A DNA stretch of 36,881 nucleotides, from IMG/VR virus record IMGVR_UViG_3300000115_000078, positions 1-36,881 of that record; one strand, given 5' to 3'. Within the stretch, counting starts at the first letter, position 1. Each line of letters begins with the position of its first letter. Both the position numbers and the translations under genes were made by a program. Positions 12,801-33,272 of this stretch are shown here, one piece after another. This stretch comes from a virus. The notes under the pieces were generated by a model that did no database searches, was not told the origin of the DNA, and saw only the letters and a program-made list of their open reading frames with translations.

Positions 12801-15800
12801 CTTCTTCTGTATGTCGCCTAGGTCTTCCATAATTTTAGCGGCAGACTCGGCCGTACCGTTTATTGGGCCAAACTCTCCGGCGAACAAGGCTCGTTGCCCT
12901 ACATCAGAGGGTATAAGCATGTTGTAAATAACAGCGTCTACTTTGTCTAACATTGTGGGGGACGGGTCTAGTCCCATGAACCGGCGTACCATATCGGTAA
13001 TAGTGTGTACAAACTGGTTCCAGTAACTAAGTACTCTCTTACCTTCAAACCCCGCTATCTTCGCACGCATAGATCGGTCGAACTTGCCATCCACCTGTAT
13101 GCTATCTAGGATATGTTGGAACTCTGGATTACCAAATGCTTCCGCCACAAACTCGCCGACATTCGTCATGCCGTAGTACGTTTTTAGGGGAATCCCTCGA
13201 CCTTCCATCTCCGCCTTCACTGCCTCATACATTTTTATTAGTCGCTTGGCGTTGGGAGTAGTGCCCCTTGGCTTACCATCTTTTATATTTAGTTCAAATA
13301 TAGTAGCAGCGTGAGTTACCTCGTGGAGTAAGGTATCGACAGTCAGCCCTCCCTCCGCCTGCAAATATATAGCGTCTTCCGCTGCAACGTATAGCCCTAA
13401 CGTCTTCCTAGTTTGTTCTGGGAATGCTTGTACTAACGCATCCGCCGGTAACGTGAAGACTTTAGTAGGGCCGAGATTATCGGCTAACGCTTTGGCGATG
13501 TTCTTAACTCGTGGGCTTGTAGCCTCTGAAGCAAGAGTCTCTAATGCACCTTTCACGTCTCCGGCTATCAACTTACTCTGCACAGCAGCAGACAACGGGG
13601 TTTCCAGCGCACGTCTATCTTTAGTATCTAGTTTAGGTACTTGGAGTATTGATCCGCCCTTAGCTACAAAATCTTCTACCTGAGCACGTATCTCCTCAGC
13701 CTCTTGCTTCTTACTTTTAACTGTAGGATTTACTTCTACCGGCTTAGTTGCGGCTTCTTTACGGATAATCTCTTTTATCTGCTCAACAGTCAGCGGCTCG
13801 GCTTCTTCAACCTTGCCCTTCTTAGTAGCTGTGTCAGCTTTCTTAGCGTCTTTTACAGTCTTGGTTTCCGCCTGTTTTTTGGCTCTCTGAGCAGCAGCTT
13901 CTCTACGCTTCTTACGTGCAACGCGTTGGGCGGCGAGGTTCTTGCCTCCTTCTAGCTCCATCTTCGCCTGCTTTTTCTTTTGCTTCTCGTTAGCTTCGGC
14001 TAGCTCGGCAGCAGCTACTTCTTCACGTAGTTTCTTCTTTGTGTTCTCCACAGCCTTAGCGTCTTCCGCTTTGTCCGTTTCGATTTGTTTGTCCATAGCC
14101 GCGTTGGTTTCGGCAGGCAAATTATTTTTAGCCCACTCTACTACAGCCTTAGCGCTCTTACCGCCTGTACCTCTACGTTTGACTTCAACTGGGTCTACAG
14201 CGCCTTTCACATTCCTAACCGCTGGCATGTCGTTAGCCACTTCAAAAGCGGCAGCACGTAGGGCGCTCTCTGGGTTAGCATAGGCGTTGAAGTACTTAGC
14301 TATAACCCTGTCGGTGTTGAACTTATCTTTCGCGTCTTCGTAGCGTGGCACTGACTCTGCCGGACGCCTCTTGCGGAACTCTTTGTCTTTGCCCTTTTCA
14401 TCGACGTACTGGGCCACATCAGATACTGGAGCCAAAGCAGTGCGGTCTGTATCCGCAAGTTTAATTGGAGTATCAACAACTAACTTACCAGTCTCAGGGT
14501 CAACAGTGCTCATACCCGGGATTGGCTTTGTGGGGGTTGTTGTGGCAACAGGTTGTGGCGCTACTTTAGTTTTGGGCGCAGGTTGTACCTTTTTGGTCGC
14601 GGGTCGTACCTTTTTGGGCGCAGGTTGTACCTTTTGCTTGGGTACCTCAATACCCTTATCGGCTAATGCTTTTTGTGCGGCAGCGGGTAACTCAGGTAGT
14701 TCTTGGCGTTTAAATTCAGGGGTGGTCTTGAGTCCTTGCTTTTTAACTCCAGTCTTGGACTGCACTCCCGGCAGGGGTTCCTGCTGCCCACGTTCTTTCG
14801 GCTTGCGTTCTTTAACCTGAGATTCTAGTAAGTCTAGTGCTGCTCTGTTTTCGGTTGCGATAGCGGCATCTCTAGCCTCTGCTTCGGCAACATCTAGTGT
14901 GCCCTCAAACAGTACAGCGTATTCCTGCTCCACGGTACGTTTTTCTTCTGCACCTAATTTTTGGTTATCTTCGTCTGCTTTGATTAGGGCTTCAATCTCA
15001 GCCGTATCTTCCATGTCCTGTATCTGTGCTTCTTCCGCACGGTCAACCATGTCGGGCTGTTCTTTTATCTGGTCGTCATCTTCTAGACGCGCTAGTCTTT
15101 CTTGCTCCGCGTCTTCCATAGCCATAGTGTCGGCTAATTCTTCGTCGGTAACTTCTTTGGGTGTTCGGTCTGTATCTGGGAATAGGTCTCCCGCTTCCTG
15201 CTGTTCTCTACCCCGCTCGGCTTCAACTTGTTTACGGTTTCTCTGGTCAGTAGGGAAGCGTACATCTTCACTGGGCATATCACCCGTGGTAGCTTCGTCC
15301 TCTATTTCTTGTTGGCGTCGAGCCTCGTCCGCGTCTCTTCTAGCCTGTTCTATTTCGGCAGGAGTACCTGCGGTTCCCTCTTCGTCCACAACAATGGTAG
15401 GGTCTGGTGCGGGTAGGAGTCCGGCTATTACGACTTCAGCTTCTTCGGCGTTTTTAGCTCCACGTGCTCTACTACCGCCCGGCAACATCAAGTCAAGGGT
15501 AGCACCGACAAGGCCGCCGATTGTAGCTTCTTCACCCACACCCCCAAAGGTTTCGGCAAGGGCGTTGTACTGCTGTTCGTTGAGGTTTTGTAGGACACCC
15601 GATGTGGCTTCCTGAGCAGCCTCGAACCCACCGGAGATAAAGGCGCTATGCGCTCTCTGCCCTATAGTCTCTACAACTTCAGGGCCAATGTTGTTTGCTA
15701 GTTTGGTTATGACGGGGACGTCAATAGCTTTGATGAATCTACCCAGAGGTAATATGTCTAGGAACCCGATGGGAGCACCACGTAGAGTAGCGGCAGATCT

Positions 15801-16292
15801 TTCTTTTTCGGTAGCACCTGCGGCACGAGCACGTTCACTAGCTTCACCAGCAGCGGCGCCTACACCGAGTGCTCCAGCAACACCTGTGGCGGCGAGAGTG
15901 GGGGCACCCCCAAATACAGCGGCGGCGGCGGGAACAGCTATGCCCGCTACGGAACCTAAACCTTGCCCGAACTTATAAAAGAGCGAGTCCTTGTCTCCGC
16001 CTTCAGGAGTAATTATATCAAAGGTATCTTGAATAGCTTTCCTAGCTTTTGTCTCCGCCTCATCTTCTAGGAGCGCCGCAGCGCCGAGCGAAGCCATCTC
16101 ACCAACGTTTACCGCACCTGCGCCGAATCCAGTGAGTAGGTTCTCAATTACTCCTGACTCTTCCTCTTCTTCTACCGGCGCGGCAGAACCTTCTCGCTCT
16201 TTGATTGCGAAAGCTAGGGTAGTAGCAGTATCTTCGTCCCCATTTTCTAACGCTACTTCAAACCGACGGTATAACTCATCAAGTACGCTCAT
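9897..16292 (-). CDS. Giant virion protein with zincin metalloprotease motif, probably ejected
   Basis: A 2131-residue protein at the end of the virion operon, in the position of T7 gp16-like internal proteins. Residues 50-150 are Gly/Ala-rich and hydrophobic (membrane-active, e.g. GVAGALGVGAAAGEASERA). About 300-930 is charged, low-complexity and coiled-coil-like (E/K/A/Q-rich, with a 7-residue KVQPAPK repeat). A zincin domain follows: TLLHEVTHAATIF with H990, E991, H994, and a likely third ligand in NVGEFVAEAFGN (E1047 or E1051). The C-terminal half is helical with hydrophobic stretches near 1588-1605 and 1850-1874, and a basic tail (KKFNKRHRRQAINGETIRR). No lysozyme or transglycosylase motif is seen. 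It resembles phage polyvalent proteins in layout. Cleavage of peptidoglycan-linked or host proteins after ejection is an inference. Confidence 0.88.
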   Translation of the reverse strand: MSVLDELYRRFEVALENGDEDTATTLAFAIKEREGSAAPVEEEEESGVIENLLTGFGAGAVNVGEMASLGAAALLEDEAETKARKAIQDTFDIITPEGGDKDSLFYKFGQGLGSVAGIAVPAAAAVFGGAPTLAATGVAGALGVGAAAGEASERARAAGATEKERSAATLRGAPIGFLDILPLGRFIKAIDVPVITKLANNIGPEVVETIGQRAHSAFISGGFEAAQEATSGVLQNLNEQQYNALAETFGGVGEEATIGGLVGATLDLMLPGGSRARGAKNAEEAEVVIAGLLPAPDPTIVVDEEGTAGTPAEIEQARRDADEARRQQEIEDEATTGDMPSEDVRFPTDQRNRKQVEAERGREQQEAGDLFPDTDRTPKEVTDEELADTMAMEDAEQERLARLEDDDQIKEQPDMVDRAEEAQIQDMEDTAEIEALIKADEDNQKLGAEEKRTVEQEYAVLFEGTLDVAEAEARDAAIATENRAALDLLESQVKERKPKERGQQEPLPGVQSKTGVKKQGLKTTPEFKRQELPELPAAAQKALADKGIEVPKQKVQPAPKKVRPATKKVQPAPKTKVAPQPVATTTPTKPIPGMSTVDPETGKLVVDTPIKLADTDRTALAPVSDVAQYVDEKGKDKEFRKRRPAESVPRYEDAKDKFNTDRVIAKYFNAYANPESALRAAAFEVANDMPAVRNVKGAVDPVEVKRRGTGGKSAKAVVEWAKNNLPAETNAAMDKQIETDKAEDAKAVENTKKKLREEVAAAELAEANEKQKKKQAKMELEGGKNLAAQRVARKKRREAAAQRAKKQAETKTVKDAKKADTATKKGKVEEAEPLTVEQIKEIIRKEAATKPVEVNPTVKSKKQEAEEIRAQVEDFVAKGGSILQVPKLDTKDRRALETPLSAAVQSKLIAGDVKGALETLASEATSPRVKNIAKALADNLGPTKVFTLPADALVQAFPEQTRKTLGLYVAAEDAIYLQAEGGLTVDTLLHEVTHAATIFELNIKDGKPRGTTPNAKRLIKMYEAVKAEMEGRGIPLKTYYGMTNVGEFVAEAFGNPEFQHILDSIQVDGKFDRSMRAKIAGFEGKRVLSYWNQFVHTITDMVRRFMGLDPSPTMLDKVDAVIYNMLIPSDVGQRALFAGEFGPINGTAESAAKIMEDLGDIQKKFKNLTGSKESFIDNAVDLLGDVPANAKKFILNVVGSQGVGDVARKQGFGDLGIRLHKMLNLRRGAMDKADADMRAVTEKLSKFAAADEKNQPQLDKVIYDPVIGATITQLDPTLTEAEATKRYKNSDDLATWKEQQVEWKKLGKEGQDMYVELRDAYKNQFLKLKDSIFNRLDNAVSDESMSKEAANTLKQQVLEQMFSNTTLDVYFPLTREGDFVLSYAFDNPKNPEQAYVVRRFTTKREMERVKAELEKDSKVVTDSIEAKRDLGKATMYDNAPPATFAGKTLKLLKEGNASEELQDAFMTMYMDHLPETSFAQSLRKRTGVLGFEGNSKTAIRTKGFDLARQVVQIEYGGRISGIRSEINNVERPKDVDEKVFADLQAHMDGVANFAINGAKKKGMEKFVKNANQVAFIYTIGFNVSSALVNLSQIPLVVLPYLSSRHGLGASTKAITNASQIVGSTSDYGGGTGIDDLFDLDANGNYTAKDSLSDGQKKMIKDMNLGVLVKAAAEQGQLTKAFLPDALAVHEQGRAARGGIMGSALDVVSNMGAHFGFAQAERFNRQTAMVATYALSLKQLRAKKKAGEKYYASTKAEFVDLSTMSDSDITALAAEEAIYQVQETNGGAVLETSPKWAQQGIGRIAFMYKTYGLQMYYTMFKSAKLFTDNIGDNTPEGIELRRQAKKQIAGVYLSSALMAGVQGVPLYGLVRAIADMFLDEEEDDADTIVRKYIGEGFYKGFAVNALGVDFATRIKLTDLVIQTNRYNNDPSTEEIIGFHLGGPALSVGNRFIRGVKDLREGETERGIESILPAALSNGYKSTFGRFARDEGIYTRRGDPIYDDMSFKDLAFQTMGFAPAEYTFAQEQASMSKRIESGVTGKRQDLLKKLNIARRFGDLKEAKEILKDIKKFNKRHRRQAINGETIRRSASQFSRTTATMHNGVTITKSLRQDAARSRDEYQQGFEVLFGKDE
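14574..14635 (-). repeat. 21-base tandem repeat, three copies
   Basis: Three 21-base units beginning at 14574, 14595 and 14616 (GGGCGCAGGTTGTACCTTTTT on +, the middle one diverged) encode seven-residue units KVQPAPK-KVRPATK-KVQPAPK in the charged linker of the 2131-residue protein. Pro/Lys spacing suggests an extended hinge. Confidence 0.85.
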
Positions 16293-16304
16293 GGACTACC
16301 TTTA

Positions 16305-18578
16305 TTATTGTTGGGTTAAAGCGTCAACTTTACCTTTGAGGTCTTTTCTTTTATCAGACTGTTGCTGCTCGTTATCACTTGCTACTTCGTCTGTAGCCAA
16401 AGCTCTGAGATTGGGGTATAACTGCTTTAAGCGCAGGTCAAGTTCTTTCTGCCTTACGTCTATACCCGCCTCAAGTTCACGGTCGGTAATCATAGCCTTA
16501 ATTTCTGTATCTGTCATTGAAGAAACGGCAGCAATCTTACCCACTTCCTCTGCTATTTTCCCTCTAACCGTGTCTAACTGTTTGGCTATCTCATCTAACT
16601 GCTTAGAGTCAGCCTGTCGTATTTCTTGAGATTTTAGACTCGCGTCTAGCTGCGTCTTAATGGACGCCAGTCGGTTCTTAATCTTGTTGTCAGCGTTAGC
16701 GTATATCTGCGTGATCTTGGCATCCACAGCATCTAGGTTTTTTGCGCCAATGTCCGCCACTAAGTTTAGCCCTGATCGCCTATCTTCGACAGCGGATTTG
16801 TATGCGGTTTGTCCGGCTTCTCCTGAGGCTTTAATTATATCAAAGTCCTTATTGATAGCATCTACGTCCAAACCACGCTTTAGCATAAAGGTAGCACGTT
16901 CTTCGTTCATAACGTTTCTACGCATATTTCTGCCAGCTTGTGCGGCGCCACGGAAGCCTCCTTTAGATAGTCCGCCCCTCAACGCATCTATCTTACGTTG
17001 TTTAAGTGCGTCCCCTGAGGTCTGGCGGTCGATCATAGCTTGGTAGTCAGTTCCCTGCTTGAGCATTTCTTGGACTTTAGTTAGCGGCTTGCCGTCTGGC
17101 CCTACTTGCCCAGTGATTCCGCGATTCGCTCTATCTTCAGAACGCTTCTCTTCCGCCGCTCGCATTGCTACAGGATCTGTAGCAGCCAACTTAGCAGCCC
17201 CTTGGTCTATAGCAGCAAGTCCCTCTATAGGATTACCATCCGCATCCAAAGCGCGAGGCATAGAGTCAGAGAAACGTGTTGGGGATACGGCGTCCACTTT
17301 TTCCTGCGTTGAATCGAGTTCAGTGGCGGCTGTGCCCATACCTCCAAGTTCGTCCATGAGAAGCTGTTCTGCACTCTTCTTTACTTCGGTAACTTGTGGG
17401 CCAGCTTGTGGGCCAGCTTGTGGGCCAGCTTGTGGGCCAGCTTGTGGGCCATCCATAACGCTAGTATCATCGTCAGTTATGCCTAGTTCGGCCTTAACGT
17501 TGTCTATAGGAGCTTCTGTGATTACTTCTGGCTTGGCCTCGGGCTTATTGAAGTTGGCGCGTAGGTCAGCGATAGCGGCTTCTATCTCTTCAGCAGATTT
17601 TCCTTCTCTCCTTAGTTTCCTTTTTGTCTGGTACTCCTGCATCTCTAATTGCTGTTCAGGGCTACCTTCAAAGAACGCAGTAATTCCCGCTCTAGCAGCA
17701 GTACTTTCTTCGGCAGTGGGCATCTCTCTACCCATCTGCTTTGGGCGTGGTTTCTTCTTTTCCGGGCTAGGTACGGTAGTCAACCCAGCAAGTCCTTCTT
17801 TCGCTTGCCCTACACTTGGGAGGCTAGTGTCTAGCATTTCTGGCATTTCTACATTAGACCCGCCTCCATCTTCCGGCGCCGCTATAGATTCAAACCCCAC
17901 CGATCCTTCAAGATCCACAGCAGGCATGTCAGAGTCCATAGGGCCAGTAAGCGCTTCAGTGGTAGGCTCGTACGAATGCGACTCTTGTAGGTAGCCTACG
18001 ATCTCGTCTTTATTAGCGCCACTAGGTAGCGCTTTTACTAGGCCGTCGAACTGTGTTCTTTTTAGGCTGCCATTTTGAATCTTTTCTTTGACGTCGGCCA
18101 CTGTAATGCGGGCTTTTGTCTTCTGCATAGAGGTTGGTTGGCCGTCGCCCTCTACATCACCGCCTTCTTCAAACTGAGGCATACCTTGTGGAGGAGCCAT
18201 ACCTTGTGGAGGAGCCATACTTGCGATACCAGCGCCCTGTGGAGGTTTTGCCCCCGGTGCGGGTTGGCCCAGAGCCTGTGCGGTCTGTGCAGCTTTCTTC
18301 TGTTTCTGATCTAGGATGCCGGAGGTCTGTGCGACTAGATCGTCTTTCGTGCGACCTAACATCTCTTGTTCCATCTGCTCAGCAATGGTTCCGGGCATCT
18401 GTTCTGCCTTCATAGCCATATCACGTGCAGCAGCGTCTTTCTCTGCCTTTAGTTTCTGCATAGCCAGCAGATCCATCAGCTCTTGGTTTTTAGCGTAGCT
18501 CTGTTGTAACGCCTGAGGATTGCCTCGGTAAGCGTCGGCCTTCTGGTCTACTAGTTTGTCGATTCCGCCGTCTAACAT
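16305..18578 (-). CDS. Large coiled-coil virion protein (probable internal/ejected protein)
   Basis: A 757-residue protein preceded by GGGAG, starting 3 bases after the previous stop. The N terminus (DGGIDKLVDQKADAYRGNPQ, then ALQQSYAKNQELMDLLAMQK) is helical and of a type I recall in other marine podovirus virion proteins. The middle (about 100-490) is Pro/Gln/Gly-rich and likely disordered, with MAPPQG and GPQA repeats. The C-terminal 200 residues are strongly coiled-coil (KTQLDASLKSQEIRQADSKQ, EEVGKIAAVSSMTDTEIKAM). No enzyme motif. It sits between the 575- and 2131-residue genes in one transcription unit. Probably a T7 gp15-like or scaffold-like inner virion part, by position only. Confidence 0.85.
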   Translation of the reverse strand: MLDGGIDKLVDQKADAYRGNPQALQQSYAKNQELMDLLAMQKLKAEKDAAARDMAMKAEQMPGTIAEQMEQEMLGRTKDDLVAQTSGILDQKQKKAAQTAQALGQPAPGAKPPQGAGIASMAPPQGMAPPQGMPQFEEGGDVEGDGQPTSMQKTKARITVADVKEKIQNGSLKRTQFDGLVKALPSGANKDEIVGYLQESHSYEPTTEALTGPMDSDMPAVDLEGSVGFESIAAPEDGGGSNVEMPEMLDTSLPSVGQAKEGLAGLTTVPSPEKKKPRPKQMGREMPTAEESTAARAGITAFFEGSPEQQLEMQEYQTKRKLRREGKSAEEIEAAIADLRANFNKPEAKPEVITEAPIDNVKAELGITDDDTSVMDGPQAGPQAGPQAGPQAGPQVTEVKKSAEQLLMDELGGMGTAATELDSTQEKVDAVSPTRFSDSMPRALDADGNPIEGLAAIDQGAAKLAATDPVAMRAAEEKRSEDRANRGITGQVGPDGKPLTKVQEMLKQGTDYQAMIDRQTSGDALKQRKIDALRGGLSKGGFRGAAQAGRNMRRNVMNEERATFMLKRGLDVDAINKDFDIIKASGEAGQTAYKSAVEDRRSGLNLVADIGAKNLDAVDAKITQIYANADNKIKNRLASIKTQLDASLKSQEIRQADSKQLDEIAKQLDTVRGKIAEEVGKIAAVSSMTDTEIKAMITDRELEAGIDVRQKELDLRLKQLYPNLRALATDEVASDNEQQQSDKRKDLKGKVDALTQQ
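17393..17451 (-). repeat. 12-base tandem repeat encoding GPQA units
   Basis: Four complete copies of CTTGTGGGCCAG plus an 11-base partial copy, almost perfectly identical at DNA level, encode consecutive Gly-Pro-Gln-Ala units in the 757-residue protein. The identity of the copies suggests recent slippage, so copy number may vary between relatives. Confidence 0.93.
18180..18215 (-). repeat. 18-base direct repeat encoding MAPPQG
   Basis: Two perfect copies of CATACCTTGTGGAGGAGC (18180-18197, 18198-18215) encode MAPPQG twice in the Pro-rich part of the 757-residue protein; a shorter related piece (CCCTGTGGAGG) lies just beyond, encoding PPQG. Confidence 0.88.
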
Positions 18579-18581
18579 TGC

Positions 18582-20309
18582 TTACACTCCCGATGAGGTT
18601 GGTGGTGTTGTTGTTGTTTCTTCTTCTGGTTTTATGGCGTCAAGAGCATCTTCAGTCGTACCAAGTGCGCCTTCAAGTGCCGATAGATCACTAGGCTGAG
18701 AATACTGATAGCTTTGAGCTGCCAGTGGAAGACCCTGTAACAAAGACTGCTGAAACTGTATAGCCTTGTATGGGTAGTCTCGTTCTTCCTCAAACTGCGC
18801 TTTATCCGCAGCGATGCCTTCAGCAGTAATACCCCTCTGTATAGCGCCTGCGTCAGCTTGTAGTCCAAGTACGTCCATACCATACTTGTTAGTCTTATCT
18901 TGGGCAGTCATGCTACGATCTTGCTCAGTGTTAAACTGATTCTGCGCGTTTTGGAATGCGGTGTTGTACCCCTGTGCAGTTATGTCCTGCTGGTTTTGCA
19001 TCAAGTTACGCATGCCTTCAGCTTCCATTATAGCCTGTCGAGAACCACCAAAAGCACCGGCCTTAGTCATACGTCCTGCATCAGCTATTCTTGAAATCTC
19101 CGCTTGTCTACGTGCCTCTCGCAACTGTGGGTCTAGTGACCCTTGTAGATACGGGTTCATGTACTGTTGTTGGGCAGCCGCATCGAAAGTACCGGGGGTA
19201 TAGTCGCCGCCCATACCTGTTGGAGTTTGTAGCCCGCCAATACCCGTAAATGCCTGATCCTGTAGTTGGCTTTGATCCGCAGTAAGTGGGCCTGTATAAG
19301 CATCATAGTCTTGATTAGATAGCGCCTGACCTTTGCCGAGCATGTCAGTAACATACTCACCTGCCCAGTTAGATAGCGAGGACTCTTGACCAGTATTTAC
19401 CCCGACCATTGGGTCTTCCGTACCTGCGGTATCATCAGCAACAGTATCAGTAGTACCGCCTGCTTCAAACTTCTTAATAGCGCCACCACCATAATACGTA
19501 GCAATGCCACCCTGAGCCATCTTAGGCATGAACTGGTTAGGGTTAATTTCTTTACCTTGGTTGACGTTGCCGGTACGCTCTTTGCGCACGTTATCCATCA
19601 TACTGTGTAGCTGCTTGGCACCTGCATCAGAGTTACCGTTACCTAGGTGACTTACTACATCAGCAGGGATTACAAACTCGCCGTCACTCAGACGGGCTTC
19701 TTGCTTACCATCAATGTTAGCTTTAACTTCATCCGCCATACCATCAGTAGTACCACCTAAGTAGTACCCTTGACCCGGAGAGGTAGCCATACCACCTGCC
19801 GCCATTTTCTTCTCTTCTTCACGTCTAGCGTAAGGGCTAAGTCGACTATTACCATACATACCCGCAAGACCACCCGCTGCTAATTGTTGCGCAGGAGGGG
19901 TTTCGACTGGAGGGGCAGTATTCGCGTTTATTTGTTGGTTGTCATAACGCAACTGCGACGCTTGGGCGTCTACAATAGTTTGTGCTTCTTCCAGTGTGGG
20001 GACTTTTTGGTCTTCTGGGCGTTGTGCATATATAGTATCAGTAAAGGAGCGCTGCCCACCTTGACCGGGACGACGGTCTTCGCTACCGTAAATAGGGGTA
20101 TTCATTGGCTGTGTTTGCCTACGCACGGCTTCGTATTTAGGGATCTTGCCCTGATACCCTGTTTTAGGGATGTTCGGCTGACCTATGCCGGATTTTTCTA
20201 GTCCGTAGGCCACGAGCAGTGGGCCTAAGTCCTTCGCATCTAATCCCTCCAGTCCTCCTAAGCCAAACTCTCCTAGCTGTTTATTTACCCATTCTCCAAA
20301 TTTACTCAT
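18582..20309 (-). CDS. Virion structural protein with LSDGEFVIPADVV motif
   Basis: A 575-residue protein starting after GGAGAATAGAA. The middle carries ANIDGKQEARLSDGEFVIPA followed by DVVSHLGNGNSDAGAK (197-232), a signature I recall in structural proteins of many marine phages, and several GG-rich patches (AAGGLAGMYG, AQGGIATYYGGG). The C-terminal third has KAGAFGGSRQAIMEAEG (416-432) and FEEERDYPYKAIQFQQSLLQ (506-525), also typical of this class, with Gln/Asn-rich coiled helices between them. No enzyme motif and no clear membrane span. Probably an inner virion or neck-associated protein made together with the giant neighbours. Function unproven. Confidence 0.85.
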   Translation of the reverse strand: MSKFGEWVNKQLGEFGLGGLEGLDAKDLGPLLVAYGLEKSGIGQPNIPKTGYQGKIPKYEAVRRQTQPMNTPIYGSEDRRPGQGGQRSFTDTIYAQRPEDQKVPTLEEAQTIVDAQASQLRYDNQQINANTAPPVETPPAQQLAAGGLAGMYGNSRLSPYARREEEKKMAAGGMATSPGQGYYLGGTTDGMADEVKANIDGKQEARLSDGEFVIPADVVSHLGNGNSDAGAKQLHSMMDNVRKERTGNVNQGKEINPNQFMPKMAQGGIATYYGGGAIKKFEAGGTTDTVADDTAGTEDPMVGVNTGQESSLSNWAGEYVTDMLGKGQALSNQDYDAYTGPLTADQSQLQDQAFTGIGGLQTPTGMGGDYTPGTFDAAAQQQYMNPYLQGSLDPQLREARRQAEISRIADAGRMTKAGAFGGSRQAIMEAEGMRNLMQNQQDITAQGYNTAFQNAQNQFNTEQDRSMTAQDKTNKYGMDVLGLQADAGAIQRGITAEGIAADKAQFEEERDYPYKAIQFQQSLLQGLPLAAQSYQYSQPSDLSALEGALGTTEDALDAIKPEEETTTTPPTSSGV

Positions 20310-20311
20310 TT

Positions 20312-23300
20312 CTATTCTCCAAGCAAGCGTAAAAGCTCGTCATTTGTCTGTATTATGCCACCCTGCGCGGCTCTTTGTGTGGGTTGTCGTCTACCGTAAG
20401 GGGACGCAAATAATTCTTTCTGTTGAGGGGTAGCAAATATCTCATCCCCATACACGTCAAACAAGTAGTCAATCTGCGTCAGTGGTGACGGCTTCTGAGC
20501 GCCTACAGATACTTGCTGCTGTACAGCCCCTATAGCTTGCTCCCCTAGCTGATCTAGTTGTTCTCGCTGCGCCTGCACCTCAGCTAAGTAGTTAGCATCA
20601 GAGTATGCCTGTTGTTGCTCTTGCTGTTGCTGCTGTTGCGCTGCTAGGTCAGCTTGACGTTGTGCTTCTTGCTCAGCCAATGCCTCGTTTTGCTGCGCTA
20701 TCTGTAGGTATAACCCTGTAGCATCGCCAAATTGACTATCTGCCGCGAACTCTACGTCCTGTCCACCAAACGAGTCTTCGAGTAATACCTGATCTATTGC
20801 GTCTATTACACCATCATTGTTCACATCATACAACATATCCTCAGAAGTTGGTACATAGCCTTCCGGGTTTTGTAGTACGTCTTGTGATGCTATAAGGTCT
20901 GCTACATTATCTATATCTTCCTGCGTTACTTCCCTTTCTGGCTTACCAAGTATCTCCGCTACAGCAGCGGTCTGACTCTTTTGCTCTTCTAGTAACTTCG
21001 TTAGGGCTTCAACATCAGTATCTTGCTGCTGCGCCAGCTCACTTACAGCCTGCGCTATTGCCGCATCTCTGTCTCCAGATTCAGCTTCTAGCTCGTCAAT
21101 ACGGGCGTTAAGAGTAGTACCTAAATCAGTTACATTAGATTCTAGAGAGGCTAGCCACTCAGTTTCAGTACCTACAAATCCGTCTTCTACAGCTATATCG
21201 TATGCAGACAGACCTCTAGCACCTCTAGCTCCATCAGTGCCCTGTAGAGAAGTTACCCACTCTGCTTCAGTACCATCGTACCCGTCGGCTACAGCTATAT
21301 CATATGCAGAATTACCGTCTGTACCATCTACACCTTCTAGAGAGGCTAGCCACTCTGATTCAGTACCAGTGTATCCCCCAGCTTTAGCTAGTTCGTATGC
21401 GGATGCACCATCTACACCATCAATACCATCTACACCGTTAGTACCATCTTGACCGTCTTTACCGTCTTCCGGCACTTTAAAGCCAAACTCTGGATCATCA
21501 TTTATTCTATTTTCTATTGCGGTTGTACCCCAATTTAGAGGCTTACGGATAAACTCATCGGCTTCCTCGTCGGTAAGCATATACCCTAAAGATTCGGCAT
21601 ACTCCTTTACCTGCTGTCGGGTCATGGTGGGGCGTATATCTTCTGGCTCACTAGCCACCCACTCGCCGATAGCCGCACTAATATCTTCTGTGCCGTACTT
21701 ATTTAGGAACTGCTGCATCTGCGCATTGGTCAAATAAACGCCGTGGTCGTCAATACCTTTAGCACGTATAAACCCAGTTCCAACCGTGGCGGTACCGTAG
21801 CCCGGCTTTTCTTCTAGGAACTCAGATATATCTGTTTGTGCGCTTTCTAATGTATCCCCAAGGAACTGCTCTGCCTGTGCATCAGTAATAATTCTACCGT
21901 TACTAAGGAACTCGTTCTTAATCTGTTCTACAGTTACAGCAGGGGTACCTACATCTGTATCAGGGTCTTGTATGTCTAGTTTCAATACCGTCGCTACGTT
22001 CTCTTCCGTATCCTGCTGTACATATAAATCTGCTTCTTCGTCGGTAAGAATGATGCCCTCTGCTAGCGCAGCTTCTTGCACCTCGCCTCGGTCGGTAAAT
22101 AGGGGGTCAATGAAAGTGGCAATGTCGCTGGATAGGGTTGTATCGGCGTCAACTGCACCCACAAAGTTTGCTATGTCAGCCTCGCTAGCTACAAACCCTA
22201 GGTCTTCAAACATCACCGACACTTCTTGACTACTGTTATATTCTGAGTCAAAAGACAGGTCTAGTATATCTGTGCGGATAACAGAGTCTTCTAGACCAAA
22301 GTTATCTAGCACGGCTTCCACATCTGCTGCGCTACCACCGTTACCTATTGTGTCCGCTAGTTCTAGTTGGAAAGTGGGATTCCCGTTCATTAGAATCCTA
22401 CCCTCTACACTGCCCGGATCACTACTACCGGGGGCACTAGGGTCAATAATATTTAATCCCCCAACAGTACCTGCGACAGTGCCTTCGAGAATTGCCCCCA
22501 AAGTTGCGGACGTCAGTATATTTTGCGACCAGTCGCGGTCGGGGTCTAGTCCAGAGTTATATATCAACAACTCTTTAACGGCGGCTACACTGCCCTCTTC
22601 TATACCCCCAGTTACAAATTCTGAACTCATGGGTTTGAGGGTTTCGTACATTTGCAAAAATGTATTTTTCTCTTTGAGTGTGGCTGTAGACATGTCTTTA
22701 CCAAATACTTTTTTGTACATGTCAGCACCACCGATACCCATGGTTAGGCCGGTAATCATCATAGAACTTATACCCACGGCATGGGCGTTCTCGGATGCAA
22801 ATCTCTCCGCTTCTTCTACGGTCATGGGGGCTTCCATTTCCCCGGTCACGGCGTTAAATTTTGGGGTTGTAGCTAGGGTATAGAACTCATCGTATGCGCC
22901 GCTAGCTTCTCCGCCGTACGCCTCTGCCATGTCGATTGCTACAGCTCCAGTAAAGCCAAAAGTATTAGACATGGATGCTACAATATCGTCAGACTGCTTT
23001 AGTCCTCTACCTACAAGTTGTCCCGCGATTTTGAACCCGCCACCAAACAGTAACGTAGGTACCTCTTGTATGACTTCTTTTATAACGAGGTCTTTTACAA
23101 ACATACCGGGGTAAGTGCTTATAGCTTCCCAGACTCCATCACTCTCTAACAGCGCGTACATCTTATCGCGCTCTTGGCGGTACTCTTCGGTATGCGTGGC
23201 GTTAGCCATACCACTTATAGCATTTGTGACTTGTTGGAAAGTAGAACCCGGTATCTCTTCTTGCCCAGATTGAAAATCTTCTATCATGGCTTTGTGTATG

Positions 23301-26300
23301 TTTTCGTTATACTCTAACCCAGCCGCAGCATAGTGTGGCGCAGGAGACATACCTATAGGGACGTTCTTAACAGTCTCTATAAACCAATCTATACCGCCCA
23401 TGAACTCGTTAGTTGCTTCAATCACGTTTACGTAGTCGTCTACAAACTGCTCGGCTGTTTTCTCCCCAACCTCGGGGTTGCCACTTATTATGCCGGAGAC
23501 ACTACCGGAGTAGGATAAAGTAAACCCTTCCTCCTTATACTTATCTAGAGTTTCCAGCATGCCCTTAGCGGTCTTGTACCACCAGTTACCCGCGACGTCT
23601 TCTCCTACGTCTTGAGGCATCTCTCCGATGGTTTTTAACCACGCTTCGGGGTCTGTAAACAATAAAGTCTCTAGGGGATCACTTGACCCAAATACGGCTT
23701 GAAACTCTTCGGTTTGCATGGCTGGGACGGCTTCTGTTAAGTTACCCTCCGCGTCTTGCTCCTGCACGTACGTTGTGCCGTTAGCATTGGCTTCGTAGAA
23801 CCTAAACCCACCATCATCCGTTTGTTCTGTTATCGTCTGGTTCTTGCGTAACTTAATGTCTCCGTTTACATACTGTACATCTTGCCCATCTGGCCCAGCA
23901 AAGGTGCCGTTTAGAGGCTTCATCTCTCCATCTACTATCGCATACTGATTGTTATTCTCCTGTACGGTCAGTACATCGTTACCAAACCTATCCGTACCTT
24001 GTAGAACTAGTCCGTACTCGTCGTCGTAGGAAACAGATTGCATACCCTCAGTGGACAGCACTTCCCACGTTAGTTTGCCTGATACAGGGTCAAAGGTCAG
24101 TTGCGCATCTCCAGACACCACATCTGCCCAGTCCGCAGCGCCCCCAAGTTCAATACCCATAGAACTCTTTTGGTTGCTCTCTGATACTGCTAAGTTACGT
24201 CTGTCCGCAACGGGTATTTTGGAGCCGACCGCTAACTCGTCGATGTAGTCTTCGCTAAATCCAGCCGCCTCAAGTCGCTCTTTCATGCTGTCGATGTTTT
24301 GCTCAGTAAGCACGAAGTCTTGCGCGTTACCCAGATCAGACAGCGCCATAAGAGAACTTTGCACACGCCACTTTAGTGCGCTTTCGTTGGCTATTCCGTC
24401 TTTCAGAGATTGTATGTCGTCCCCATAACGATTAGTAAGTTGGTTTCTGATTCTCTGAAGTTCTTCTGGAGACAGTTTGGCTGGATTTATACCCGATGCG
24501 GTTATAGCGGTGTTCATCAACTTATTAAATGCCGCGTCGTACTGCGCGGTGTACGCGTCTGCGTTAGTAGGGGTGCCGAACTGGACTCCAGAATTAATGT
24601 AATGGTCGTACGCGCTCACACCGTCAGGTATATCATACTTCTGTCGGTACCACGCCTCGTCAAAGTTAGGGTCTATTTCCGCTACCGCTCCCTTCATCAC
24701 GTCCTGATATACAGGGGCTACGTTATCGTTTAGTACGACTGTAGCATCATTGAGGTCTACACTGGCGGCGTCAAAGTCTGTTTTGGCATCTGTAAAGTCT
24801 TGTTCCGCATCGTTCATTGTGGTTACGAAGTTGTTGTATCTCGGCCCCGCCTCGTTAGCTATGTACATGCTATAGGATTGGAACGCGTCGTCGTAGGCGT
24901 CTTGGTCGGACTCTCTTCCTGTAGTTTCCGCCCGTACACGTAGTACTTCCAGTGCTTCCTCTCGCCCCTGCATTTCTGCTTCGAGGGCTTTTGCACCTGT
25001 AACTGCTTGGTTATATGTAGACTGCGCAGTATTCATTCTGTCCGTAGCTAGTCTTGTCTTGGTGTACTCTCCCGTTACCTTGTCTTGGTACTGAGCAAGG
25101 TCATCAAACAAAGTACCTTCATCTATAGATTTTTGGATAGCTTTAGTTGCGGCAGTGGCTATGGTCTGTAAGAACGCATCTGACGCATCCCCACCTAACA
25201 TAGCGGAAGTCACGGCGTTTTGTATAGATTGAGTTATTAGTCTAGCGCCCGCTACGTCTTGTAAATACTCAGGAAACTGCTCTCCAATAGCATTAACAGT
25301 TATAGCCCCTGCTGACACTGCGCGAGCCATAGCCGCTTCGTCAACTTCCCCGTTGATTACCGCGTCTTGCAGCCCTTGCTCTAGTGCGTCTTTGATTCCT
25401 TCATCTAGGTTGTCAAACACGCCTCCGGTCATCTGCCCCAGTTTACTTATGGCGGACTCAATATTTGTAGTAGGTATGGCCTCGACAAACTCCCCTATTA
25501 CCGTTCTAGATTCGTCACTTATCCCCGGAATTATGTTATTCATCTCTGACAGTATGACTTTAAACCCGTCTGTGAGTCCTCCTACTGACCCCGCTGCCCA
25601 CTCGGTTATTTCGTCCCAGCTAGGCAGGTTTAAATCCCCAGAGTTTATTTCGTCAGGTATAGCGTCTAATATCGGTTGTAAGTACTGGTCGTCTAGGTCT
25701 CGCCCAATTTCTCTCAGGCTATCTATAAAATCCCCACCAAGCTCTGTGTCTCGTAACCACGTAGCTACGCCGGAAGCAAACGCCTCTTCCCAGTCTTCCC
25801 CCTGCGCTAACTTGTTCATTCCTTTGTATAGTCCCTGCTTTATACCGGGATCTAGTGTATCTAGGTCTACCCCAAACTCTTCTAATGCGCCATCCATTAG
25901 GTCTGAGCCAAACTCAGAGAATACAAAGCTCATAGGGTCGCCAGTAGCGACAGCGTTAATTAGTCCTACGGTCTGAGAGTAGGACATACCGGCAAGCCCT
26001 ACACCAACATTAGCGGCCCTGTGAGCATCCATTGCTGACCTACCCACACTAGTAAACGCATCGCCCACTTTCCACGTGGCGTCTGCTGCCACCTCTGCGG
26101 CTTCGCCAGCAGCTTTTACTTCCTTAGCGCTCGCTGGGGGTGTGATAATATCAAACGCTTTTAACGCTGATAGCCCCGCAGACATGTAATCCGCTAAGGT
26201 CAACGTCTTATCATTAAATACTACATCCATCGCCGTAACGGTTAGCGCTACCCAAGGAGATATAAAACTACTAGCGACACGAGCAAAAGCGGGCATAGCG

Positions 26301-27820
26301 AAAGCCTTGTCTATGCTTACATCTAAGTATTCACCCAACCCGCCGATGGTCTCCAGCTTACCCACGTCTTTACGCAGTGCTCTGTCTTCTTCGCTAACCT
26401 CATCGTCAATGAAATACTCTGCGTAAGTATTGGTAACATTTAGATTTCTGTAAGTTCCCGATGGGCCATATACTCCACCCGCTTTGAGCGTCTCCTCAGG
26501 AAAAAACTTAACCCTCTGGTACCCGTACTGCCCAGCAGTGGACACTGGATCGTCCCCAAAAAAGAAGTTATCATCAATTTCGTAGCTGGCGTCTTTATTA
26601 AATGCAGACCCTTTCATTTTCACTGCATACATGTCTTCTGTGGTTTTGCTGCCTCCTTGAGGTGACCCCGCAGGTAGTATGTACACATGGTCGTACTCGC
26701 CTGACTGCTCCATGTTACTCATTACAAATTGCTTGTATTGCTTTGTAGCCTCGTCCCCAACTATCGCGTCGATCTGAGCATCGGTATATTTACGTGCGCC
26801 CCCGCGACTTGTCTGGTTCTCTAATTCTTGTCTACGTCCGGGGGGTTCCAGCATACCCTTTTCGTACATCTTGAACGCTTGGACGTTCTTGTCCTTCAGG
26901 CTCAAGCTATTCCACGCCTCGTCGTACTTCTCTGGGGCCAAGAGCTGTATTATATTTAGTTCTATTAGCTTATTGTCGTGGTACTCTACTGCTTTTTTGT
27001 CGTACGCTACTTGGAAGTCGTCTAATATCCCACCAAAGACCGCAGCCTCTTCATAGCGGGACTTCATGGTGTCTTCCCACTTAGTCCTGTTTTGCGCACT
27101 AAAGGTAGCGTTATTGCCTGTAGACGATCCACCAACATTTGTAGAAAGCGCGGACTTGTTTAGGATCTCTCCAGCTTCTTCGATAGAGTACCCAACTTTG
27201 ATAAGCTCATCCATCATGCCGAAGTTATCGACTATCATGTCACGGATCATGTTGGTACTTTGAGCTACGCCGTCGTAGTTACTGTTATGCCAATCCCTAG
27301 TGCCAGAGAACTCTGCGGCATAGTCAGCGTTGGACATACCTCCAGTAGGAACAGTTGACCTACCAACGCCATAGTTACTGTCCAAGTCGTAAAGGCCAGC
27401 TCTATACGCATCTACAGCAGCGTTAAAGTCAGCGGAGTTGGGTTTGTGTCCTTGGTAACGCTGTTCTGGTAAGGTAAACGCGGGGTCTCCCGAGTAATCG
27501 GGCACTTCGTTCCCGTACGCTTCAGCCATGCTGCCCTGCGGGCCGGTACCAAAAGAACCAAAGAAGTTTCTACTGTAGTCTCCGTAAGTGTCATCAACAT
27601 CTCTAGCTACGTTTTGTAGCCCGTAGTGCGGACTATCTACATAACCACCTTCAGGGCGACCCATCATCCTACTCATGTGGGCAAAACGCTGAGACATAGA
27701 CTGCCAATATAAATTTTGGTTCGGAGAACCCTGCCCGCCGTATCTCGGTAGTGGATTTCCTTGTCCATCTGTGCCGTCGCGGCTCATAAAGGTGCCAGAG
27801 GTTCTGTTGTAGTAAGACAT
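20312..27820 (-). CDS. Giant 2502-residue virion protein with repeats, collagen-like segment and dockerin-like loop
   Basis: The largest gene in the window, in one piece. N terminus: MSYYNRTSGTFMSRDGTDGQ, Gly/Arg/Tyr-rich. About 500-900 is Ala/Gly-rich and helical. Near 1052-1085 is EAWYRQKYDIPDGVSAYDHY with a following GVQFG, like a short repeat seen in bacterial surface proteins. Hydrophobic helices lie near 1690-1710 and 1770-1790. Residues 1862-2117 hold five tandem ~52-residue units (G at 1875, 1922, 1975, 2027, 2079, then hLTDxxA-like). A collagen-like DG-rich run (2119-2138) is followed by three SAYxxA...GTExEWxxSL units (2140-2228). NDGVIDAIDQVLL (2331-2345 region) resembles a dockerin/EF-hand calcium loop. 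A Gln-rich coil and an AAQGGIIQ tail end the protein. The start has a poor ribosome site 1 base after the upstream stop, so translation is likely coupled. Confidence 0.88.
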   Translation of the reverse strand: MSYYNRTSGTFMSRDGTDGQGNPLPRYGGQGSPNQNLYWQSMSQRFAHMSRMMGRPEGGYVDSPHYGLQNVARDVDDTYGDYSRNFFGSFGTGPQGSMAEAYGNEVPDYSGDPAFTLPEQRYQGHKPNSADFNAAVDAYRAGLYDLDSNYGVGRSTVPTGGMSNADYAAEFSGTRDWHNSNYDGVAQSTNMIRDMIVDNFGMMDELIKVGYSIEEAGEILNKSALSTNVGGSSTGNNATFSAQNRTKWEDTMKSRYEEAAVFGGILDDFQVAYDKKAVEYHDNKLIELNIIQLLAPEKYDEAWNSLSLKDKNVQAFKMYEKGMLEPPGRRQELENQTSRGGARKYTDAQIDAIVGDEATKQYKQFVMSNMEQSGEYDHVYILPAGSPQGGSKTTEDMYAVKMKGSAFNKDASYEIDDNFFFGDDPVSTAGQYGYQRVKFFPEETLKAGGVYGPSGTYRNLNVTNTYAEYFIDDEVSEEDRALRKDVGKLETIGGLGEYLDVSIDKAFAMPAFARVASSFISPWVALTVTAMDVVFNDKTLTLADYMSAGLSALKAFDIITPPASAKEVKAAGEAAEVAADATWKVGDAFTSVGRSAMDAHRAANVGVGLAGMSYSQTVGLINAVATGDPMSFVFSEFGSDLMDGALEEFGVDLDTLDPGIKQGLYKGMNKLAQGEDWEEAFASGVATWLRDTELGGDFIDSLREIGRDLDDQYLQPILDAIPDEINSGDLNLPSWDEITEWAAGSVGGLTDGFKVILSEMNNIIPGISDESRTVIGEFVEAIPTTNIESAISKLGQMTGGVFDNLDEGIKDALEQGLQDAVINGEVDEAAMARAVSAGAITVNAIGEQFPEYLQDVAGARLITQSIQNAVTSAMLGGDASDAFLQTIATAATKAIQKSIDEGTLFDDLAQYQDKVTGEYTKTRLATDRMNTAQSTYNQAVTGAKALEAEMQGREEALEVLRVRAETTGRESDQDAYDDAFQSYSMYIANEAGPRYNNFVTTMNDAEQDFTDAKTDFDAASVDLNDATVVLNDNVAPVYQDVMKGAVAEIDPNFDEAWYRQKYDIPDGVSAYDHYINSGVQFGTPTNADAYTAQYDAAFNKLMNTAITASGINPAKLSPEELQRIRNQLTNRYGDDIQSLKDGIANESALKWRVQSSLMALSDLGNAQDFVLTEQNIDSMKERLEAAGFSEDYIDELAVGSKIPVADRRNLAVSESNQKSSMGIELGGAADWADVVSGDAQLTFDPVSGKLTWEVLSTEGMQSVSYDDEYGLVLQGTDRFGNDVLTVQENNNQYAIVDGEMKPLNGTFAGPDGQDVQYVNGDIKLRKNQTITEQTDDGGFRFYEANANGTTYVQEQDAEGNLTEAVPAMQTEEFQAVFGSSDPLETLLFTDPEAWLKTIGEMPQDVGEDVAGNWWYKTAKGMLETLDKYKEEGFTLSYSGSVSGIISGNPEVGEKTAEQFVDDYVNVIEATNEFMGGIDWFIETVKNVPIGMSPAPHYAAAGLEYNENIHKAMIEDFQSGQEEIPGSTFQQVTNAISGMANATHTEEYRQERDKMYALLESDGVWEAISTYPGMFVKDLVIKEVIQEVPTLLFGGGFKIAGQLVGRGLKQSDDIVASMSNTFGFTGAVAIDMAEAYGGEASGAYDEFYTLATTPKFNAVTGEMEAPMTVEEAERFASENAHAVGISSMMITGLTMGIGGADMYKKVFGKDMSTATLKEKNTFLQMYETLKPMSSEFVTGGIEEGSVAAVKELLIYNSGLDPDRDWSQNILTSATLGAILEGTVAGTVGGLNIIDPSAPGSSDPGSVEGRILMNGNPTFQLELADTIGNGGSAADVEAVLDNFGLEDSVIRTDILDLSFDSEYNSSQEVSVMFEDLGFVASEADIANFVGAVDADTTLSSDIATFIDPLFTDRGEVQEAALAEGIILTDEEADLYVQQDTEENVATVLKLDIQDPDTDVGTPAVTVEQIKNEFLSNGRIITDAQAEQFLGDTLESAQTDISEFLEEKPGYGTATVGTGFIRAKGIDDHGVYLTNAQMQQFLNKYGTEDISAAIGEWVASEPEDIRPTMTRQQVKEYAESLGYMLTDEEADEFIRKPLNWGTTAIENRINDDPEFGFKVPEDGKDGQDGTNGVDGIDGVDGASAYELAKAGGYTGTESEWLASLEGVDGTDGNSAYDIAVADGYDGTEAEWVTSLQGTDGARGARGLSAYDIAVEDGFVGTETEWLASLESNVTDLGTTLNARIDELEAESGDRDAAIAQAVSELAQQQDTDVEALTKLLEEQKSQTAAVAEILGKPEREVTQEDIDNVADLIASQDVLQNPEGYVPTSEDMLYDVNNDGVIDAIDQVLLEDSFGGQDVEFAADSQFGDATGLYLQIAQQNEALAEQEAQRQADLAAQQQQQQEQQQAYSDANYLAEVQAQREQLDQLGEQAIGAVQQQVSVGAQKPSPLTQIDYLFDVYGDEIFATPQQKELFASPYGRRQPTQRAAQGGIIQTNDELLRLLGE
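21137..21466 (-). repeat. Collagen-like run and three SAY/GTExEW repeats
   Basis: The collagen-like DG triplets DGKDGQDGTNGVDGIDGVDG are followed by three related 24-residue units, e.g. SAYELAKAGGYTGTESEWLA, joined by 7- to 10-residue Gly/Asp linkers. These modules are known in surface and fibre-like proteins, where the Gly-x-y runs form trimers. The units are similar but not identical at DNA level, so the array is old. Confidence 0.85.
21470..22240 (-). repeat. Five tandem ~52-residue protein repeats
   Basis: Units start at Gly1875, 1922, 1975, 2027 and 2079 of the 2502-residue protein: GFVASEADIANFV, GIILTDEEADLYV, GRIITDAQAEQFL, GVYLTNAQMQQFL, GYMLTDEEADEFI. Each is followed by an acidic helix such as TDISEFLEEKPG or TTAIENRINDDPE. 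Spacing is 47, 53, 52 and 52 residues. I do not recognise the unit as a named family. Confidence 0.8.
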
Positions 27821-27821
27821 A

Positions 27822-28610
27822 TTAGTTTTTTACCAGTAATCCAGTGAATGACGCGGATATATCGTTACTACCCGTGCCGTCAATAGTGCCCCTACATTCT
27901 ATATCAGTCTTCTCCGGTATAGCTAGGGGTCTAGAAAACGGAGCGTCTAGCAGGGTTGAGCGGAGTGCATGTTTGTACAAGCTAACCCACGCGTCACTAT
28001 TGTAAGCCCTAGTGACAAAATTAACTAGTCCTCGGTTAGTAACGCTGGCGCGTATAGCAGTTTTAAACTGTATTAGGTCTATGTACAAAGTATGTCCGGC
28101 AGGTACCGTATATATCGCTGCGGCGGATTGATTGTCTGGAGCTTGTAATGAGTTATCTATTCGCAAGTAGTAAGTGCCTGTAGGTATTCCATTAGTGGCC
28201 CCACTGTCAGCTAGGTATATATCGCCGAATTGGTGTCCATTACTTCCCACGGTAAGTGCTTCCATCTTAAAAACACGTAGGTAGGTGTTGGCTGTCGCCG
28301 CTTGTGTTCTACCCTGCATAGTTATGTCTTCTGATACTAAGTTGTAGTCTCCGTCCAACCCTGTTATTCGCATACTGCGTATACCTGTCTGTACCCCCGA
28401 ATCCCCATCGTCGTTACCGGAACCACTACTAAGATACATGGTCTGTGCAGAAGAAGGGTAAGGCTGTAAGACTCTCGATCCGTCTGTCCACATTATGGTC
28501 TCTTCTATGTCACCTCTAATCTGCGGGTTTACGGCCCACACAAAGATTGGAGTAGCGCCTTCTACCTGCCCTTTTGCGACTTGTAACTTGTACGGTTCTA
28601 AAGTAGCCAT
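27822..28610 (-). CDS. Beta-rich virion protein, paralogue B
   Basis: A 262-residue protein sharing most of its length with the upstream 307-residue gene: VAKGQVEGATPIFVWAVNP against VARGEIAGASSVYVYGFNH, YPSSAQTMYLSS against YPSSAATVFISS, and VPAGHTLYIDLIQFK against VPAGHTLYMDLIQIK, ending GLLVKN against GILIQN. It lacks the 40-residue N-terminal helix of its partner. Glycine- and Thr/Ser-rich with alternating strands, as in decoration or fibre proteins; no enzymatic motif. It lies between the tail/stabilisation gene and the giant proteins, so a tail or decoration role is likely. Confidence 0.85.
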   Translation of the reverse strand: MATLEPYKLQVAKGQVEGATPIFVWAVNPQIRGDIEETIMWTDGSRVLQPYPSSAQTMYLSSGSGNDDGDSGVQTGIRSMRITGLDGDYNLVSEDITMQGRTQAATANTYLRVFKMEALTVGSNGHQFGDIYLADSGATNGIPTGTYYLRIDNSLQAPDNQSAAAIYTVPAGHTLYIDLIQFKTAIRASVTNRGLVNFVTRAYNSDAWVSLYKHALRSTLLDAPFSRPLAIPEKTDIECRGTIDGTGSNDISASFTGLLVKN

Positions 28611-28611
28611 A

Positions 28612-29535
28612 TTAGTTCTGTATTAGTATCCCGGTAAAGTTACCGCCCACTTCGTCTGCGTTGGCGTTAGTACAGTAACTACGTAGTTCTATATCTGTCT
28701 TTTCGTCAAACTTATAGTAGTTAGGGAACGGTATATCTAGAAGATTTGCGCGGAGAGCGTGCTCTATAAACTCCACAAACGGTTTGTCGCTACCAAACTC
28801 CCTATAGGCCGCTGCCACAATGTTAAACCCGCTTATGGTTGCCCGGTTGTCCGCCTTTATCTGTATCAAGTCCATATACAAGGTATGTCCGGCGGGCACT
28901 GTGTATACCGCTGCTTGGGATATGTTAATCGCAGATATGTCGTCGGATTCCATGACTAGATACGTAGTACCTGTAGGTACCCCACTAGATGCTCCGGTAG
29001 TAGCCACGTATATATCCCCTGCGTTCTTCTCTCCAGACCCAGCGGTTACTGTGGTTATTTTGAACAGTCGTATATAACTCTTAGAGCTTTCTACCTGAGT
29101 TTGCCCGTTCATAGTAATAGTCTCAGACACCGCGGCGTAGTCAGCATCCAACCCCTCTAGCAAAAGGGTACGCGCCCCCGTCCCTGCGGAGGTATCATTG
29201 GCGTTAGCACTACTAATAAACACCGTAGCCGCAGAGGAGGGGTACTGCATGAGGCCGCCTTGGTACTGTAATGTTTCAGTAGCGTTCTGCGCCATATCAT
29301 GGTTAAACCCATACACGTATACAGAAGACGCCCCAGCTATCTCTCCCCTAGCCACCTGCTCATTATACGGTACATCTACTGCCGCAATATTACGTAGAGC
29401 GTTGTCTAGTTGGTTGAAGTATTGACGTAGTATACGGTTGTGTTCGTTTGTTGCCCTTGGACTATATTCTGACTTAGCATTAGGTAGAGATGGAGCAACA
29501 AACGGTATGTTGTACTTAGTAGTATCGCCCGGCAT
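28612..29535 (-). CDS. Beta-rich virion protein, paralogue A, with N-terminal helical extension
   Basis: A 307-residue protein. The first 60 residues (YNIPFVAPSLPNAKSEYSPR, then a helix with RILRQYFNQLDNALRN) look like the start of many marine phage tail proteins, where they attach to the virion. The rest is the same beta-rich fold as the 262-residue neighbour (see the motifs listed there). The start overlaps the stop of the 635-residue gene by one base (TAATG). The two paralogues share the junction AACTAATATG at their ends, as expected from duplication. Role in the tail or on the capsid surface is inferred. Confidence 0.86.
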   Translation of the reverse strand: MPGDTTKYNIPFVAPSLPNAKSEYSPRATNEHNRILRQYFNQLDNALRNIAAVDVPYNEQVARGEIAGASSVYVYGFNHDMAQNATETLQYQGGLMQYPSSAATVFISSANANDTSAGTGARTLLLEGLDADYAAVSETITMNGQTQVESSKSYIRLFKITTVTAGSGEKNAGDIYVATTGASSGVPTGTTYLVMESDDISAINISQAAVYTVPAGHTLYMDLIQIKADNRATISGFNIVAAAYREFGSDKPFVEFIEHALRANLLDIPFPNYYKFDEKTDIELRSYCTNANADEVGGNFTGILIQN

Positions 29536-32363: not shown

Positions 32364-33272
32364 TTATTTCGCCACCCATCCAGTGTTGCCTGTGCCAGAT
32401 TCTTTTACATATAAAGAAGTACTAGCTCCCCCATCAGACCTCATATACAGAGACCCTACTACAGCAGTTTGGCTGCTTTCAGGAGTACCAGAACCAGAGT
32501 AAATAGATGGAGTACCTACTTTAATAGCCTTACCCGCAGGGAGATCAACACCTGTAGCACTAGTGGATATAGCCAGAGCGCCAGACCCATGTTTGAGGTC
32601 GATAGCGCCGTCTACGTCCATTACGAAGTTGTTTGCGCCACTAACAGTGCCCATCTCAATATCAATGGCCTTAATAAGTAGGTTTCCACTACCAGTTTCT
32701 TGGATGATGGAGTCACCAGAGGTAGCGTCGTGATAGATTTGTAGGTCACTATCACCACCAAATATAGCTCTAGAAGTGTCACTAAAAGTAACGTCGTCGC
32801 CAGCGGATACCACGATGTCTTTACCCGAGGTGCTGTTACCTGCGTCAAGTACGGTTTCTAGTGTGGTGGATGGGATTATTACGTTAGTGCCATCACATAC
32901 TAGAAGGGCGGTGCCGCCGTTGGCTACACTGATACCAGTGCCCGATGGTGTTTTTAACGTAGCTGCTTGGCCTGAAGAGTTTTGCATAACGAATAGCTTA
33001 GAGTTTGCAGGACAAACAACTGTAGCCGCGCCGGTCAAGTTAGTACCAGTATCCGTCAAAGTAAGGATAGCCGCTCTAGACCCCGACTCTGCGCCCTCAA
33101 CTATAGATAACGTGTGAGAGTTACCTGACCAAGTGTTTATCACCTGTCGGCCCGCAATGGCTTCTTCCACCATTTTGGTAACTTTGTTATTTACTTCGTC
33201 ACCCCAAGTGCCGTCTAGCTCCCCTTGTACAGGGAGTCCGAGCTTTAGGATTGTAGAATATGCTGTTGCCAT
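32364..33272 (-). CDS. Tail fibre protein
   Basis: A 302-residue tail fibre of a style common in marine phages. The N terminus, YSTILKLGLPVQGELDGTWG and EEAIAG, is the virion-attachment module. The middle is Gly/Thr/Ser-rich beta repeats with GGDSDLQIYHDATSGDSIIQ, the familiar GDxDLxIxHD motif of fibre shafts, and the end has SLYMRSDGGASTSLYVKESG leading to TGWVAK, a typical closing head. No chaperone or endosialidase domain, so the tip is short. It lies between the small structural protein gene and the lysis cassette. Confidence 0.83.
   Translation of the reverse strand: MATAYSTILKLGLPVQGELDGTWGDEVNNKVTKMVEEAIAGRQVINTWSGNSHTLSIVEGAESGSRAAILTLTDTGTNLTGAATVVCPANSKLFVMQNSSGQAATLKTPSGTGISVANGGTALLVCDGTNVIIPSTTLETVLDAGNSTSGKDIVVSAGDDVTFSDTSRAIFGGDSDLQIYHDATSGDSIIQETGSGNLLIKAIDIEMGTVSGANNFVMDVDGAIDLKHGSGALAISTSATGVDLPAGKAIKVGTPSIYSGSGTPESSQTAVVGSLYMRSDGGASTSLYVKESGTGNTGWVAK

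Follow-up and report, generated by a model that had tools for sequence, protein, structure and literature searches.

A tandem, predicted three-helix repeat of varying copy number in giant, putatively ejection-type proteins of uncultured short-tailed phages

What is the module that is repeated five times in a 2502-residue phage protein, and what might it do there? The gene lies in a viral contig, itself a fragment (IMG/VR record IMGVR_UViG_3300000115_000078), the whole 36,881 nt of which were analysed and are referred to as the window. The original prediction described an unrecognised five-copy repeat and suggested a solenoid-like stalk or linker. We report that the copies belong to a repeat present in dozens of other phages, and our preferred reading, to which we give a probability of roughly 60%, is that tandem 46-53 residue three-helix modules form a modular spacer in a giant ejection-type virion protein of an uncultured short-tailed phage. 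The parts of the giant protein are as follows.

20312-27820, minus strand: giant virion-type protein of 2502 aa that carries the array (ORF)
23993-25810, minus strand: conserved N-terminal part, residues 671-1276 (homology to the relative L084 and others)
22421-23536, minus strand: conserved region preceding the cap, residues 1429-1800 (homology)
22247-22384, minus strand: conserved helical cap ahead of the array, residues 1813-1858 (aligned in most of 28 relatives; three helices predicted)
22100-22246, minus strand: unit 1, residues 1859-1907 (37 bits with an HMM from other phages only)
21947-22099, minus strand: unit 2, residues 1908-1958, carrying an inserted linker (its aligned counterpart in relatives is the GVTLTEEQAQQYVGQ-type unit 2)
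21791-21946, minus strand: unit 3, residues 1959-2010 (self-alignment with unit 5 at offset 104; three predicted helices)
21632-21790, minus strand: unit 4, residues 2011-2063, the most divergent (self-alignment at offset 52; helices predicted)
21479-21631, minus strand: unit 5, residues 2064-2114 (self-alignment; window-free HMM; predicted helices)
21131-21469, minus strand: collagen-like Gly-X-Y stretch with three SAYELA...GTESEWLASL motifs, residues 2118-2230 (read from the sequence)
20315-20983, minus strand: conserved C-terminal region, residues 2280-2502 (homology)

The five-unit tandem repeat is confirmed. Its anchors are at residues 1875, 1922, 1975, 2027 and 2079, which reproduces exactly the predicted gaps of 47, 53, 52 and 52 residues within residues 1875-2117 (window 21470-22198). 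When this region was aligned with itself, the best off-diagonal segments, at offsets 104, 157, 53, 52 and 204, scored 71, 61, 38, 36 and 34, and the maxima of 200 shuffles had a mean of 31 and a peak of 47; the first two segments thus exceed every shuffle, and the other three are supported jointly, their offsets being those that a period of 52 residues would give. Pairwise comparison of the five anchors gave a mean score of +14.4, whereas sets of randomly placed anchors gave -33 +/- 5 and at best -14. As an independent test we used an HMM from other phages only, with no window unit included, and this recovered unit 1 with 37 bits (E 1e-13 when searching this single sequence), the whole array at 59.1 bits (best shuffle 10.7) and units 2-5 alone at 22.3 bits (best shuffle 10.0), where 2,000 shuffles were requested and those lacking any match were left unscored.

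The predicted start motif, G-h-h-[LIA]-[TS]-[DNE]-x-x-A, is loose when taken literally: its last position is I in unit 1 and M in unit 4, and R stands at position 2 of unit 3. Structurally, a unit further includes approximately 15 residues ahead of the anchor (the amphipathic helix 1), and the array begins at about residue 1859 (window 22246), directly after the cap. The acidic character ascribed to the units holds: residues 1858-2113 contain 55 D/E vs 14 K/R (pI about 4.05), and the mean net charge of the units is -6.7.

Relatives were found using a DNA pattern for GYTPTDxE, a motif that served as a lead only and that reached many viral contigs with tandem units spaced at 46-50 residues. After a second pattern scan and iteration the family comprised 588 units in 82 ORFs, nearly all of them from a single locus in uncultured phages; the units recur every 46-50 residues, and an array has 2-18 of them. 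"Unrecognised five-copy repeat" was therefore correct as to the five copies and understated otherwise, the window array being a divergent example of a repeat that is widespread among phages, and the variation in unit number among relatives that had been foreseen is present. The family consensus reads DPRQVTxxEARxFFxxLGYTPTDxEhAxFVGQ...hxxYV, with E at position 9 conserved in 97% and T at position 22 in 77%. In the turn between canonical units D, P and R reach 88, 94 and 85%, respectively; this Y-V-D-P-R turn is typical of canonical units rather than strictly defining. The window array lacks it except in unit 1, which has the variant FIDPL. In most of the 28 relatives the cap, unit 1 and unit 2 each have one direct counterpart in the alignment; the later window units have diverged further and no longer show the turn. 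The window array is accordingly a divergent version, five units long, of a widespread feature. The array scores above its shuffles with the window-free profile and occupies the same place in a homologous giant beside the nozzle and g575 genes (below). All five units recur in the close relative L006, whose unit 5 reads GYTLSDEEVATF.

Tandem helical repeats in large phage virion proteins are a known kind of thing; this family, as far as profile scans of the window protein go, is covered by no Pfam or NCBIfam family, in line with the prediction that no named family would fit. In PHROGs, phrog_25320 (52 positions) matches partially over the array (E 4e-8); it spans helix 1 to helix 2 of the units, but the match is confined to positions 1-28, and the entry has no assigned function and describes no tandem array. 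The profile search thus gave no clear match to a known repeat family. In the phage collection, tblastn with the window array, with a synthetic consensus (based on the lead motif and likewise taken as a lead only) and with L084 returned no isolate carrying the array. Five matches to a YVDPRQVT pattern in cellular genomes, none accompanied by a unit match, were set aside as chance. Our literature search returned no paper for the motif GYTPTD and, in the open literature, none on the repeat family, which is no proof of absence.

Giants encoded on many phage contigs (L084, L042, L105 and others) are homologues of the window protein over residues 671-1276, 1429-1860 and 2203-2501, such that N-terminal, middle and C-terminal parts all align outside the array. 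By hydropathy the hydrophobic segments of the window protein are weak, which counts against the ejection-type reading, and one of them, a Gly-rich segment at approximately residues 1772-1792, lies within residues 1429-1800. Comparison of the window and L006 giants shows sharp mosaicism: the N-terminal 500 residues (window 26321-27820) are almost unrelated and residues 1200-2100 nearly identical. In L003 (window 21131-21469 compared with L003 positions 1-700) g575 is 100% identical, yet extra copies of the collagen-like SAYELA...EWLASL block are present, and hence this block differs in copy number between very close strains. The C-terminal region contains a dockerin-like calcium loop, DVNNDGVIDAID, at residues 2331-2348 (window 20777-20830), which falls under the Pfam cut-off; weak dockerin matches also occur in two relatives, and the strict loop is present in 6 of 46 tails of array proteins. 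The genes surrounding the giant are listed below.

33729-35430, minus strand: two adaptor proteins on either side of a 117-aa ORF (Pfam SU10_adaptor, E 1e-17 and 4e-10, over cut-off)
32364-33272, minus strand: probable fibre attachment protein of 302 aa, a separate gene (N-terminus matches the annotated fibre protein of phage CRP-901, E 4e-12)
29535-31442, minus strand: tail nozzle protein of 635 aa (PDB nozzle gp16, 8zkk, E 3.7e-7; phrog_3287, E 3.5e-65)
27822-29535, minus strand: two paralogous proteins of 307 and 262 aa (both phrog_8198)
18582-20309, minus strand: g575, 575 aa, in the same module as the giant (found after the array gene at 40 of the 73 array loci)
9897-18578, minus strand: proteins of 757 aa (g757) and 2131 aa that complete the module (the latter with a DarB-like C-terminus)

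The SU10-type adaptor genes together with a nozzle gene that has a solved relative indicate a short-tailed phage. The order nozzle, array giant, g575, g757 and 2131-aa protein is kept in dozens of contigs. Among the 73 array loci, the nozzle is upstream in 38 and a g575 homologue downstream in 40; 12 have neither. In L177, one of these, the array protein and the g575 domain are fused; the rest leave hardly any space, or none, for the two genes. The L105 homologue of g575 resembles phrog_4287, annotated as a DNA ejection protein (E 4e-6). In the array proteins L182 and L146 the C-terminus likewise consists of the GEFVIPADVV domain of g575, as does that of a protein from phage DSL-LC04 which occupies the corresponding place and is called tail tape measure by annotation only. 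Several relatives have a match to the 307-aa phrog_8198 copy ahead of the giant. In the 2131-aa protein (window 9897-16292) the last 760 residues have a match to an antirestriction family of DarB type (E 2.5e-36).

Since the giant is placed between the nozzle gene and ejection-type genes, we infer that it is an internal (ejection or pilot) virion protein. Podovirus internal virion genes have been located downstream of the tubeA and tubeB genes (PMC10386132), and ejection proteins are described as mosaic and variable in size in the parts of a review (PMC8954989) drawn on here. The giant resembles the ejection proteins of podoviruses (T7 gp14-16; P22 gp7, gp20 and gp16) in that it follows tail tube genes, is large and helical and has mosaic relatives. 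It differs from them in having no sequence match in the PDB, where no characterised ejection protein was hit, or in the phage collection, in which the array and the rest of the giant outside the collagen-like part matched no isolate phage; moreover, it is about twice the size of T7 gp16, and the same parts of the review make no mention of a modular array that differs in its number of units.

An external fibre or adhesin, with the array as part of its stalk, is the main rival to this reading, owing to the collagen-like stretch; we consider it unlikely, although to be taken seriously. The Gly-X-Y stretch with its SAYELA...EWLASL motifs directly after the array resembles annotated tail fibre proteins and is more typical of fibres; it is, however, variable and absent from L006. 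Coiled-coil-like repeats, identified by eye, follow the array in some relatives, but the C-terminal domain of relatives is common to proteins annotated as tape measure. The two small paralogs upstream would also suit a fibre locus, whereas a separate 302-aa fibre-attachment gene is present ahead of the nozzle and the giant itself sits in the ejection-type module.

For the array of the putative ejection protein, alignment-based models predict the same three-helix unit as for the canonical L084 array, with pLDDT 80 (about 93 on canonical units) and pTM of only 0.43-0.50. Each modelled module runs from helix 1 through a turn (GYTPT) to a short helix 2, a loop and helix 3, which continues into the D-P-R turn and the next helix 1, and includes a short beta bridge. 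The strong helical character that had been proposed is thereby borne out at the level of prediction, and the units are predicted to share one fold rather than to have unrelated ones. As to the "solenoid-like stalk or linker", a linker is plausible by position, but the low pTM means that the relative arrangement of units is not fixed by the models, and with no significant match to a solenoid fold the solenoid is unproven. Each unit has two conserved T-x-x-E motifs, which look like helix N-capping boxes; read in this way, they account for most of the predicted motif, including its [TS]-[DNE] element.

A fold search with Foldseek against the PDB and viral libraries gave nothing at E <= 0.001. The top viral match was a DUF4214 protein (E 0.046), and DUF4214 (PF13946) likewise has helical units of ~50 residues, but in a profile-profile comparison it was no better than controls (hhalign score 8.2 vs 6.7-9.6 for column-shuffled profiles) and was rejected.

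Calmodulins were the top PDB sequence matches (E 4e-4 to 1e-3) and dominated the fold matches (E 0.06-0.2, probability 0.5-0.85), and the short beta bridges beside helices 1 and 2, the nearly invariant E, the acidity and the helix-loop-helix pattern recall a calmodulin-type EF-hand pair. That the units are degenerate EF-hand pairs, calcium-binding now or formerly, is nevertheless improbable: no Pfam EF-hand family matches the arrays, the alignment is limited to the helix-linker-helix part of a longer unit, TM-scores are low (0.2-0.4), and no PDB fold match reaches E <= 0.001. Inspection of the consensus and the models gave no D-x-D-x-D-G calcium loop and no counterpart of the acidic ligand positions 1, 3 and 5, since their place is taken by helix 3. 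Domains of HTH type that bind DNA or polymerase (sigma-70 region 3 or LexA like), suggested by weak summed Pfam matches to Sigma70_r3 and LexA_DNA_bind in relatives, are more improbable still, as none of the stretches or units passes when taken singly, the units are highly acidic, and the window protein has no such match and no such fold match. Both resemblances are local helix-loop-helix mimicry.

How the number of units varies bears on the spacer reading. The arrays of L042 and L105 have 13 and 18 units with upstream flanks that are 98% identical, and L048, L084 and L042 have 5, 9 and 13 units with both flanks 60-78% identical; among near-identical giants the number is constant. Complete proteins with more units tend to be longer (r 0.70 between length and unit number, n 26). 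Neighbouring units resemble each other slightly more than other pairs do (0.40 vs 0.36), and some arrays (L179 and L182) contain units up to 98% identical, which suggests recent tandem duplication in these two.

As an internal (ejection or pilot) protein, the giant would leave via the tail and help to build a conduit for the DNA. The acidic array would then act as a modular spacer between the glycine-rich hydrophobic part and the C-terminal parts, and its reach would change with gain and loss of units. A more specific version, in which an EF-hand-like three-helix repeat is an evolvable ruler in DNA delivery and gain and loss of units fits its length to the host envelope or to conduit geometry, is speculative and in our view doubtful.

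The outcome is a name-ready profile for a repeat that is missing from curated protein libraries and is seen in dozens of uncultured phages. Giant proteins at the apparent DNA-delivery locus of short-tailed phages contain a module that is gained and lost. Finally, if these giants are ejected, the array would supply a ready-made set of graded lengths with which to test how such proteins bridge the cell envelope.
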